Below, one piece after another: positions 4,215 to 39,597 of a stretch of DNA of 64,000 nucleotides. The DNA is taken from NCBI RefSeq assembly GCF_025685415.1, contig NZ_JAGSYB010000001.1, positions 3,038,001 through 3,102,000 of the forward strand, in the 5' to 3' direction. The notes beneath the pieces are model-generated. The model did no database searches and was not told the DNA's origin. It saw only the letters and a list, made by a program, of their open reading frames with translations. Origin of the DNA: Terriglobus aquaticus (GTDB taxonomy: Bacteria > Acidobacteriota > Terriglobia > Terriglobales > Acidobacteriaceae). Both the position numbers and the translations under genes were made by a program. How positions within the stretch are numbered: the stretch's first letter is position 1; each line of letters begins with the position of its first letter.

Positions 4215-4793
4215 GTGCCCGCAGTTGCCAAGACCGATCGCGACACCATCTTGCAAGCAGCCTTGCTGCGCCTTCGCCGGGATGGGCTCGCAGGGCTGTC
4301 ATTGCGGGCGTTGGCCGCGGACGTGGGCATCGCAACCAATGCCCTGTACCACTACTTTCCGAGCCGTTCGCACCTGGAGAACGCTTTATCGGAGGAGGCA
4401 GCGCGACGCCTGCTCGCCGCTCTGCAGCGTGGAACGGCAACGCGCCGAATCGACGAGTCGCGCGAAGGCTCGAAGGCCGCTGCCGCGGAACGCATTCGCG
4501 CGCTGGCGGCCGGGTACCTGCGCTTTGCACGGCGTGAGCCGCACCTGTACGCGGCGATGCTGCAAGGACCCTGCGAGCCGGGCGAATCCAACGCGAACCA
4601 TGCCGCGCTATGGAACTTTGTGTGTGAGACCGCCGGCGTTCTGCACGGCGACAAGCGCGCGGACAGCGCAGCCATGAGCCTGTGGGCTTTGCTGCACGGC
4701 GCAGTCGCGCTGCAGCAGGCAGGCGCGCTGGCCGGGGTCAAAGCCGGGGACTGCGTCCGCTTTGGCCTGGATGCGTGGATCGCGTCTCCATAG
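4215..4793 (+). CDS. TetR/AcrR-family transcriptional regulator
   Basis: 192-aa one-component repressor. The N-terminal TetR helix-turn-helix is evident (DTILQAALLRLRRDGLAGLSLRALAADVGIATNALYHYFPSR spans about residues 9-50; key elements are LSLRALA, the turn G-I and YHYFPSR). The remainder is an all-helical ligand-binding domain resembling the TetR_C_33/WHG type (YLRFARREPHLYAAML). GTG at 4215 is the start; TAAGAT lies exactly 6 nt upstream and no Shine-Dalgarno is seen, so the mRNA may be leaderless. Divergent from the SDR gene with a palindromic operator between them; autoregulation and control of the SDR are inferred. Confidence 0.9.
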   Translation: MPAVAKTDRDTILQAALLRLRRDGLAGLSLRALAADVGIATNALYHYFPSRSHLENALSEEAARRLLAALQRGTATRRIDESREGSKAAAAERIRALAAGYLRFARREPHLYAAMLQGPCEPGESNANHAALWNFVCETAGVLHGDKRADSAAMSLWALLHGAVALQQAGALAGVKAGDCVRFGLDAWIASP

Positions 4794-36757: not shown

Positions 36758-37174
36758 TTACTCGCCGATCAGGTGCAGCACGATCTCGCGCCGGTGCGGC
36801 CGGTCACGGTGTTCGAACAGGTAAATTCCCTGCCACGTTCCCAGCGCAAGCCGACCGCCCACCAGCGGGATCGACAACTGCACCGAGGTGAGCGCCGTCT
36901 TCAGGTGCGCCGGCATGTCATCCGGTCCCTCGCTATCGTGCTGGTACGGCCCGTTCTCCGGAGCGATGCGTGAGAAGTAGTTCTTCAGGTCCACGCGGAC
37001 CGTTGGATCCGCATTCTCCTGGATCAAGAGCGACGCCGACGTGTGCCGGCAGAACACAGTCAACAGCCCCGTCTCCATCTCCTGCTGCCGTACCCACTGC
37101 GCCACCTGCGACGTCATCTCATACAAACCCTGCCCCCGCGTCGCCACCTCAACCTTGTGCACTGCCTGCTTCAC
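36758..37174 (-). CDS. yjbQ: YjbQ family protein (UPF0047)
   Basis: 138-aa protein with the conserved TVFCRHTSASLLIQENADPTVRVDL segment (key residues C, HTSAS, QEN, D-P) and HDSEGPDDMPAHLKTAL, then LGTWQGIYLFEHR. Members have weak thiamine-phosphate synthase activity in vitro; the cellular role is unsettled. GTG 37174 is supported by GGAGG 5 nt upstream. Confidence 0.93.
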   Translation of the reverse strand: MKQAVHKVEVATRGQGLYEMTSQVAQWVRQQEMETGLLTVFCRHTSASLLIQENADPTVRVDLKNYFSRIAPENGPYQHDSEGPDDMPAHLKTALTSVQLSIPLVGGRLALGTWQGIYLFEHRDRPHRREIVLHLIGE

Positions 37175-37247: not shown

Positions 37248-37823
37248 TCAGGAACAGCCTGCTGCACCGGGGTGCGCCTTGCGGCACACGCAATCCAGGC
37301 AGCCGTGCTCGGCACAACTGCCGCAAGTGCGAAGCAACTGCTTGCGCAATGCAGCCCGGGCCCGGTGAACGCGTACGCCCGCGTTGGAAGCGGTGAGGTT
37401 GCGCTGCTCCGCGAAATCCTGCACCTTCTGCTCGTTCAGGTCCACCTGCCGGATCGCGTCGGCGTACTCCGGCTTCAGGTCGTCGACCACGCTGGAAAGG
37501 CAGGCACACACATCCCTCTGCATCTCTGGGGAGGGCTGTGCCGCTCCCTCCATCTCGCGCCCCCACGCGGTCAGCGCCTTGCTCTGCGACTGCGCTCGAC
37601 GGTAGTTGTCGATCACGGCATTGCGCAGCAGGCGATAGAACCAGGCCACCGCAGACTCACCCGAGTCGAACTCGTCGCGATGCTCCAGCGCGCGCACGTA
37701 GCAGCTCTGCAGAATGTCTTCCGCAGCCGCGGCATCCGGCACACGGCGCCGAACGAACGCCAGAAACAGCGCGCGCCGGCTCAGCAGATGCTCTAACGAA
37801 TCAACAGGCATAACGAAGGGCAT
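37248..37823 (-). CDS. ECF sigma factor with cysteine-rich C-terminal tail (CorE/ECF44-like)
   Basis: 191-aa sigma-70-like factor. Sigma-2 lies at about 10-80 (AEDILQSCYVRALEHRDEF, AWFYRLLRNAVIDNYRR) and sigma-4 at about 110-165 (LKPEYADAIRQVDL, HRARAALRKQL). The last 27 residues are cysteine-rich: RTCGSCAEHGCLDCVCRKAH, then a final Cys. This layout matches CorE/CorE2 of Myxococcus (ECF44), where the cysteine tail itself binds copper or cadmium/zinc and no anti-sigma exists. No anti-sigma is adjacent here either. ATG 37823 or 37811 may be the start; neither has a Shine-Dalgarno. A 22-aa cysteine peptide gene lies 88 bp upstream on the same strand. Metal response is inferred. Confidence 0.82.
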   Translation of the reverse strand: MPFVMPVDSLEHLLSRRALFLAFVRRRVPDAAAAEDILQSCYVRALEHRDEFDSGESAVAWFYRLLRNAVIDNYRRAQSQSKALTAWGREMEGAAQPSPEMQRDVCACLSSVVDDLKPEYADAIRQVDLNEQKVQDFAEQRNLTASNAGVRVHRARAALRKQLLRTCGSCAEHGCLDCVCRKAHPGAAGCS

Positions 37824-37911
37824 TCAGAACAGCAACCAGAGAGGGCTTCAGACAGGGAATTACAAAGGGCAGGCATGGACCGGATCCACGCCCGCCCTCT
37901 GTTCAGCAGCA

Positions 37912-37980
37912 CTAGTCGTGTTTCTCGCAGGGGCAATCCACACACTGGCAGTTCGCTCCGCAGGGACAGTTGCACTTCAT
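37912..37980 (-). CDS. 22-residue cysteine-rich (metallothionein-like) peptide
   Basis: Very short but well-supported frame: ATG at 37980, TAG at 37914-37912, and AGGAGG 9-10 nt before the ATG, the strongest Shine-Dalgarno in the area. The peptide begins MKCNCPCGAN and ends CEKHD. Seven of 22 residues are Cys (positions 3, 5, 7, 11, 13, 16, 18), arranged as CxC pairs. Its C-x-D-C-x-C motif also occurs in the tail of the sigma factor encoded just downstream, as CLDCVC. No signal peptide. It probably binds a soft metal ion in the cytoplasm, as a buffer or as a competitor for the sigma tail. Not homologous to any family I can name. Confidence 0.7.
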   Translation of the reverse strand: MKCNCPCGANCQCVDCPCEKHD

Positions 37981-38020
37981 GGCTCTTCTCCTCCTTGGGA
38001 CGCCGATGAGCGTCTACCTG

Positions 38021-38050
38021 TTAGAACGCACCAACTGCCCCCGTATTACA
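38021..38050 (-). promoter_or_regulatory. Candidate ECF-type promoter of the cysteine peptide gene
   Basis: On the minus strand TGTAAT (38050-38045) is followed after 16 nt by CGTTCTAA (38028-38021), and the peptide ATG lies 40 nt further. TGTAA-type -35 and CGT-type -10 elements with 16-nt spacing are common in ECF promoters, so autoregulation is plausible. This is inference from pattern only. Confidence 0.35.
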
Positions 38051-38106: not shown

Positions 38107-39597
38107 ATGACTTCACCTCGGCTTACCGCTCGGAAGCGGCGCTGCCTTCTTGCACTCACGATTGCGTTGGCAGTCCAGACCGCGGTGTCCCCTGCGCAGC
38201 AAAGAGTGCTACCGCCGCGGGCAGAAGACGCCTTGAACCACGCGGGGCAACTGTTCGTTTCATCCGATCGCTCCGACGCCCTCTCGATCGCGATCATCAA
38301 GGCAGGGCAAGTCGAGTTCTTCCACTTCGGCACCACGGAACCCGGCAAACAGGTCAGGCCCACGAACAGCAGCGTCTACGAAATAGGTTCCATCACCAAG
38401 CTGTTTACCAGCCTGCTGCTGGCGCACGCCGTGCTCGACGGCAAGCTCGGTTTAGAGGACGACATCCGGCGTTACCTTCCGGGCGAGTACCCAAATCTCA
38501 GCTTCGGCGGTTCACCCGTGCGCATCATCGACCTTGCGGACACGACCTCCGCCTTGCCCGATAACCTGCCGGACTTTCACGCGGTTACGGCGCACGTACC
38601 GGAACAGGACAAGGCTTTCGCCCTCGCGAAGGCTCTGAACAGTTACACCGAAGCAAACATGCTGCAGGATCTTCACACGATCTCGTTGCAGGGAAAGCCT
38701 GGCCTTGAGCCCAGGCATTCCAATCTTGCCGCAGAACTGCTCGGCTACATCCTGAGCAGGGTCTACGGAGAGTCGTTTGCGACCTTGCTTCGCGCGAAGA
38801 TACAAGCACCACTTGGCATGGGCAACGGCGTGCGCGCCGACAGCCCTGCCCGCATGGTGCAGGGCTACGATCTTCATCACGTTGCTATGCCGCAAAGCAA
38901 TCAGAGCGCCGTTCTTGCCGCCGGTGGTCTGCGCTTCAGCGTGGCAGACATGGCTAAGTTCCTCCAGACAGAACTGGCGCCTGCAGCAGAGCCCATCCGT
39001 CTGACGCAGAAGCCTGCCTTCGGCAACGTGGAGACCGGTGCCGTGGGCCTGGGCTGGCAAATCAGCCGCAACGTGGAAGGTGCGCTCAAGCTGAATGCCT
39101 CCGGTGGAACGTTCGGCAGTGCGAGCTACGTCGAACTCTACCCAGAGCGAGGCTACGGCATCGTGCTGCTCGCAAATCGATCCGGTGACACGGAAGAACG
39201 CCTCTACCAGCTCGCCGACACACTCTTTGCAGCCGTGGAAGGTACTCCAGCGCTGGATGCGCTCAAGGCCGATCTGACAAGGACTCATTACGGCGACGTG
39301 GACGGCTCCGTGCAGCGCACCAGAAGCCGCTTTCCTCGCTTGACCTTGTCCGAAGCGTACGTCAACAACTGGGGAGGCGGTCTGCTTGGCACAGACCCAA
39401 AGGCCGCATTGGCACTGTTCCAATCCAACGTTGCGCGCTGGCCACAAAGCTCTAACGCCTTTGACAGCCTGGGCGAAGGGTATGCGCAAAACGGCAAGCC
39501 AACCGAAGCGATCGCCGCCTACCGCAAAGCTCTGGAGCTAAACCCCAAGAACCACGAAGCCTCGGACTCGCTTCGTTCACTGCTATCCCACCAGTAA
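38107..39597 (+). CDS. Serine hydrolase (class C beta-lactamase/esterase fold) with C-terminal TPR
   Basis: 496-aa secreted enzyme. Signal peptide about 1-31. The nucleophile motif is GSITKLF (Ser-x-x-Lys). The usual Tyr-Ser-Asn is replaced by His-Ser-Asn in EPRHSNLAAELLGY, so the canonical catalytic Tyr is missing. The third box is LNASGGTFGS. After the barrel-flanked lactamase domain, about residues 415-496 form TPR-like helices (DPKAALALFQSNVARWP, AFDSLGEGYAQNGKPTEAIAAYRKALELNP). TAGCAT ends 7 nt before ATG 38107. An upstream extension of the frame overlaps the sigma/peptide genes on the other strand and is rejected. Substrate unknown; D-aminopeptidase, esterase or cell-wall roles are possible. 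Confidence 0.85.
   Translation: MTSPRLTARKRRCLLALTIALAVQTAVSPAQQRVLPPRAEDALNHAGQLFVSSDRSDALSIAIIKAGQVEFFHFGTTEPGKQVRPTNSSVYEIGSITKLFTSLLLAHAVLDGKLGLEDDIRRYLPGEYPNLSFGGSPVRIIDLADTTSALPDNLPDFHAVTAHVPEQDKAFALAKALNSYTEANMLQDLHTISLQGKPGLEPRHSNLAAELLGYILSRVYGESFATLLRAKIQAPLGMGNGVRADSPARMVQGYDLHHVAMPQSNQSAVLAAGGLRFSVADMAKFLQTELAPAAEPIRLTQKPAFGNVETGAVGLGWQISRNVEGALKLNASGGTFGSASYVELYPERGYGIVLLANRSGDTEERLYQLADTLFAAVEGTPALDALKADLTRTHYGDVDGSVQRTRSRFPRLTLSEAYVNNWGGGLLGTDPKAALALFQSNVARWPQSSNAFDSLGEGYAQNGKPTEAIAAYRKALELNPKNHEASDSLRSLLSHQ

Follow-up and report, generated by a model that had tools for sequence, protein, structure and literature searches.

A conserved cysteine-rich peptide gene beside a CorE-like sigma factor gene in Terriglobus aquaticus, probably part of a small metal-response module

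Gene Organization of the Locus

The window analysed here is a 64,000-nucleotide stretch of the genome of Terriglobus aquaticus, a soil acidobacterium. Read along the minus strand, a promoter-like site, a stem-loop leader, an AGGAGG site, a 22-codon gene and a hairpin-bearing gap precede a sigma factor gene, as listed below with the basis of each assignment.

38025..38050, minus strand: candidate ECF-type promoter TGTAA-N17-CGT, with TGTAA at 38046-38050 and CGT at 38026-38028 (recurrent spacing)
37999..38014, minus strand: leader stem-loop GACGC-TCATCG-GCGTC before the Shine-Dalgarno (SD) site (in the window alone not significant, p 0.14)
37990..37995, minus strand: Shine-Dalgarno site AGGAGG of the peptide gene (sequence)
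37912..37980, minus strand: metallothionein-like peptide gene, 22 amino acids, 7 Cys (sequence, conservation, coding signature)
37863..37901, minus strand: strong hairpin between the peptide and sigma genes (z -4.22, dinucleotide shuffles)
37248..37823, minus strand: CorE-like ECF sigma factor gene, 191 amino acids (Pfam domains, Cys pattern)
37500..37508, minus strand: linker CxC (C106, C108) in the sigma2-sigma4 linker (sequence)
37254..37325, minus strand: Cys-rich tail, residues 167-190, C-x2-C-x4-C-x2-C-x-C-x9-C (sequence)

The peptide gene lies upstream of the sigma gene on the same strand, with a gap of 88 bp to the sigma ATG. The initial annotation had reported these coordinates, this distance, the AGGAGG site and seven Cys, all of which were correct when re-read from the window sequence. 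The Cys residues occupy positions 3, 5, 7, 11, 13, 16 and 18, and the product resembles a metallothionein in being short and Cys-rich (7 Cys in 22 amino acids), with its Cys in C-x-C clusters. A profile search found one copy of it in the window's genome.

The sigma factor has Cys at positions 41, 106, 108, 167, 170, 175, 178, 180 and 190. Region 2 is matched by Pfam Sigma70_r2 (E 1.8e-13), and region 4 gave E 1.7e-4, under the Pfam gathering score. A Cys-rich tail and a linker CxC are the hallmarks of CorE-like sigma factors in the available text of the published descriptions (PMC8999054, PMC3107203), and both are matched here, so that the earlier call of a CorE-like sigma factor stands; judged by these features, the protein is a member of the known CorE-like group (former ECF44, now ECF238). 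Acidobacteria bearing such sigma factors had been named by 2011 (PMC3107203, available text). The linker CxC was found in 81 of 81 sigma factors examined, and the tail motif C-x2-C-x4-C-x2-C-x-C in the window and in 81/82 sigma factors, L120 having a shortened form. The position equivalent to CorE Cys189, a residue that the available text of PMC3107203 ties to copper-gene synteny, is Cys in all 81 sigma factors with the full motif, a count partly biased by the search pattern.

No anti-sigma factor gene was present among the adjacent genes, namely the peptide gene, a YjbQ gene following the sigma gene (36758-37174, minus strand) and an AmpH/class-C beta-lactamase-like gene with a TPR tail (38107-39597, plus strand) divergent from the peptide gene. 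The latter two were considered as parts of a module and rejected since, among 84 loci examined with flanks of 3-5 kb, or shorter at contig ends, they adjoin the sigma gene only in the window.

Linkage of the Peptide and Sigma Genes in Related Bacteria

We assembled 84 sigma loci covering 649,898 bp (~650 kb). The family part comprises 33 loci including the window, from 30 of 200 family genomes, 32 of which were refetched with wider flanks; the remaining 51 came from named genome contigs and were found partly by the tail pattern, which biases their tails. Short frames were accepted when they had an ATG, an SD site, 15-70 amino acids, at least 6 Cys and at least 18% Cys. The Cys and SD thresholds were set after a first look at the data and applied unchanged to a fresh set of 30 loci from a phylum sample (34 fetched, 4 repeats dropped). 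Note that the SD site before the peptides is a selection effect, because the search required it, and that the counts below are not independent events, since the loci are related and L039 is a copy of L095.

The initial annotation had proposed looking for short Cys-rich open reading frames beside ECF44-type genes. With the thresholds above we obtained 34 frames in the 84 loci, 32 of them no farther than 160 bp from the sigma gene, and 10 frames in the fresh loci, all ten upstream of the sigma gene on the same strand at no more than 250 bp. The 32 linked peptides are arranged upstream on the same strand (21, with L039 repeating L095), upstream and divergent (10) or 3' on the other strand (1). 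Both non-linked frames are in L094, where one looks like a true copy, 1.3 kb away, and the other like a chance frame. Of the 33 family loci, 20 carry a linked peptide; L102 and L116 have neither a peptide nor the promoter near the sigma gene. In L213, a Cys-rich stretch upstream of the sigma gene and behind a promoter is split over two frames, reflecting either gene decay or an error in the sequence.

A profile of 15 peptides searched against the 200 family genomes gave 12 strong matches, all in sigma-bearing genomes, and one weak match in a genome without the sigma factor. This co-occurrence is largely circular because 10 of the 12 genomes supplied rows of the profile, which also misses some of its own rows. 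On plasmids, three records carry a distant sigma factor, none of which covers 80% of the query.

Coding Status and Relatives of the Peptide

The initial annotation had made its reading depend on conservation of the short frame in relatives, and the frame is kept. Comparison of close relatives in seven overlapping pairs showed 63 changed codons, 32 synonymous and 31 nonsynonymous, a synonymous fraction of 0.51 compared with a mean of 0.15 and a maximum of 0.32 in 2000 simulations. This excess indicates that the 22-codon frame is very probably translated. The linked relatives range from 21 to 53 amino acids and from 6 to 15 Cys, spaced as C-x-C with a conserved Gly and with no tandem Cys.

The peptide itself had no Pfam or NCBIfam family match, and the relatives scanned fell into no curated family, with one weak plant-metallothionein match below the cut-off. 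The prokaryotic metallothionein model PF02069 matched none of the four peptides scanned and nothing in the window's genome, where its silence is to be read beside the finding that the model recovers only 1 of 14 control genomes. The best PDB match was wheat Ec metallothionein (2kak), which was weak (E 0.071 with the profile and 0.59 with the single sequence).

A Promoter of Fixed Spacing

The window site reads TGTAAT-N16-CGTT and had been put forward as a candidate ECF promoter, a proposal supported by its recurrence. When spacings of 15-19 were allowed, TGTAA-N17-CGT was found before all 32 linked peptides. In the fresh set, a fuller pattern gave 26 sites with the N17 spacing, distributed over 23 of the 30 loci, against 9 sites over 21 other spacings together and 0 for the reversed pattern; the promoter was absent from the other 7 loci. 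It precedes 9 of the 10 fresh peptides, L216 being the one without it. Two peptide genes located elsewhere than at the sigma gene, in L125 (genome G034) and L129 (genome G194), retain the promoter.

Genome-wide, the motif is not enriched in the window's genome over the reversed-pattern controls, as two strict patterns gave 7 versus 15 and 8 versus 23 sites (11 distinct sites) and a looser pattern gave 23 versus 53. Of the other strict sites, 9 of 10 are inside a frame of at least 80 codons, a weak criterion since the window's own promoter is also inside a long opposite-strand frame, and no Cys-rich gene follows any of the 10 within the 84-134 bases downstream.

The mere 22 codons of the frame and its lack of a family match would suit a fortuitous reading frame next to an unremarkable sigma gene. 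However, the linkage in 32/34 and 10/10 frames, the synonymous excess, the fixed promoter spacing and the replication in fresh loci make coincidence an explanation that we consider practically negligible. The linkage, coding signature and promoter spacing together indicate a pairing of peptide and sigma factor beyond chance, and on this comparative evidence the frame beside the sigma gene in many related bacteria is a real, conserved coding peptide.

Several other arrangements of the promoter were observed. In L106, L107, L108, L111 and other ATPase-type loci, TGTAA overlaps the stop codon of the sigma gene itself, which makes the -35 element part of the end of the coding region. L194, L197 and L222 have two promoter copies about 230 bp apart between the sigma and ATPase genes, with a gap in which another short gene may lie. 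In L204, a promoter downstream of the sigma gene precedes a 55-amino-acid frame containing runs of CC and CCC, which may encode a different kind of small metal-binding peptide. L223, a Candidatus Manganitrophus plasmid, has two tandem TGTAA-N17-CGTC sites (4628-4709) after a distant CorE-like sigma gene; the plasmid further encodes NikR, chromate resistance and a heavy-metal P-type ATPase.

Targets in Sister Loci, the Role of the Peptide and the Metal

At nine family loci lacking the peptide, the promoter is found at the stop codon of the sigma gene or immediately beyond it, and a long gene follows, in L115 after a short YHS-like frame. Three of the nine were scanned and have YHS, HMBD and E1-E2 ATPase domains, and the L106 ATPase passes the copper-translocating ATPase model (597 bits, cut-off 397). 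Elsewhere the promoter precedes genes for an HMA protein (L220), a cupredoxin (L051), an HMBD protein (L046) and a multicopper oxidase (L195). The metal-response theme of the initial annotation is thus upheld by sister targets that include P1B ATPase, HMA protein, cupredoxin and multicopper oxidase. In a quick tree of 81 sigma factors (without L087, L088 and L117), target layouts cluster, requiring 18 changes compared with 43.4 for shuffled labels. In the window's genome, the HMA domain had no match, and the sole match to PF00122 (P-type ATPase) is KdpB (1089.6 versus 527.9 bits).

The initial annotation had also pointed to a C-x-D-C-x-C motif shared by the two window proteins. The motif is indeed present in both, as C-V-D-C-P-C in the peptide and C-L-D-C-V-C in the sigma factor, but it is not conserved as a shared feature, occurring in 71 of 82 sigma factors and in only 4 of 32 peptides. 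This bears on the idea that the peptide chiefly regulates the sigma factor, competing for or exchanging metal with the Cys-rich tail and so setting a threshold or shut-off, for which the adjacency of the genes and their similar C-x-C chemistry could be cited. The rarity of the motif among the peptides gives no indication of a competing ligand, the peptides vary widely in length and Cys number, and the sister sigma factors that have an ATPase target without a linked peptide suggest that the sigma factor needs no peptide. We therefore regard a chiefly regulatory peptide as improbable. Sequestration of metal is its probable function, copper being the most likely metal.

Zinc or cadmium could serve as both signal and ligand in the same module. 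The best, weak PDB match of the peptide profile (E 0.071) is to wheat Ec metallothionein, a zinc protein. CorE2, which belongs to the same sigma group, responds to Cd and Zn according to the available text of PMC8999054, which leaves the identity of the metal uncertain. On the other hand, the sister targets are of copper type. Judged from these targets, copper is more likely than Cd or Zn, and we would give the zinc or cadmium version a minor share of the probability, above that of the regulatory role.

Hairpins and Expression Balance

The hairpin between the two genes recurs with z of -2 or lower in 14 of 20 non-redundant same-strand loci (mononucleotide shuffles), with positive z in L047 and L119. 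By the T-run rule, the window has no terminator between the peptide and sigma genes. The leader stem before the SD site also recurs, with differing sequence (combined p 2e-13 over 31 related loci, mononucleotide shuffles). Just 2 of the 21 called starts of same-strand sigma genes have an SD-like site, which, together with the AGGAGG before the peptide, leads us to expect much peptide and little sigma factor.

A Cys-rich frame, a strong hairpin and then the sigma gene is an order that would also suit a Cys-codon leader peptide that attenuates the sigma gene and whose product is functionless. Such a leader should be upstream on the same transcript, whereas 10 of 32 peptides are divergent and one is 3' on the other strand. 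In addition, the peptides of L125 and L129 are located elsewhere with their promoter retained, the Cys residues form a C-x-C pattern with a conserved Gly instead of lying in tandem, and the window has no T-run terminator, so that attenuation seems very hard to sustain. The divergent and 3' layouts, and the position of the promoter after the sigma gene at ATPase targets, likewise argue against autoregulation as a general property; the autoregulation proposed by the initial annotation could operate only in same-strand loci, by read-through past the hairpin.

Proposed Metal-Response Module

Our favoured reading, which we consider likely from the comparative data, is a one-component metal-response module in which the sigma factor drives expression of a metallothionein-like peptide, the metal probably being copper. 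By analogy with CorE, a metal, most likely copper, would bind the Cys tail and linker CxC of the sigma factor. The metal-loaded sigma factor would bring RNA polymerase to TGTAA-N17-CGT, a promoter recognized by comparison and presumed active, and the peptide, made from its strong ribosome site, would by its composition bind metal as a tiny metallothionein. Free metal would then fall and the sigma factor would switch off. In the layout of the window, read-through past the hairpin could raise sigma levels somewhat, giving positive feedback.

A broader version is more speculative and, in our view, on balance doubtful: that the peptides form an undescribed bacterial family of copper thioneins of 21-53 amino acids, that in Acidobacteriota they are a main target of the CorE-like sigma factors, and that the peptide also withdraws metal from the sigma tail and thereby resets the sensor, which would amount to a two-gene, self-limiting response without anti-sigma, exporter or chaperone. 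A literature search, mostly outside subscription papers and on partial texts, returned no report of a peptide linked to CorE-like sigma factors.

These results point to a predicted, uncatalogued family of very short metal-binding peptides, supply a testable promoter for a little-studied sigma group, and connect CorE-like sigma factors with metal sequestration besides export. They also suggest that genes under length cut-offs can be discovered through their regulator. In the window's genome, which yielded neither an HMA protein nor a P1B ATPase, the peptide may serve as an important cytosolic defence against copper.

Comparison with Known Systems

Fungal copper thioneins, as in Neurospora, have about 25 amino acids and seven Cys in C-x-C. 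The window peptide resembles them in length and in its seven C-x-C Cys, and the PDB searches did not return them. With wheat Ec metallothionein (PDB 2kak) the peptide shares the spacing C-x-C-G-x2-C-x-C, a weak match that probably reflects convergence. SmtA and BmtA (PF02069) are likewise Cys-rich, as the peptide is, with metal binding predicted for it, but the four peptides scanned gave no match to PF02069. MymT of Mycobacterium tuberculosis is, in the available text of PMC7558416 and PMC10141476, a small Cys-rich cytosolic protein of a copper regulon that had escaped annotation; it is likened to the peptide by description and not by sequence, and differs in its larger size (4.9 kDa) and in being controlled by the repressor RicR instead of a sigma factor.

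The closest regulators are CorE and CorE2 of Myxococcus xanthus, which in the available text of PMC8999054 and PMC3107203 have regions 2 and 4, a Cys-rich tail and a linker CxC like the window sigma factor. They further resemble the present family in that no adjacent anti-sigma factor was seen and in having metal-handling targets, which here are found in sister loci. PMC3107203 also refers to a consensus for the CorE target promoters. The available text of PMC3107203 does not mention a metallothionein among the CorE targets, which are cuoB, copB, an HMA protein gene and probably copA, whereas the predicted target in the window is the 22-amino-acid peptide.
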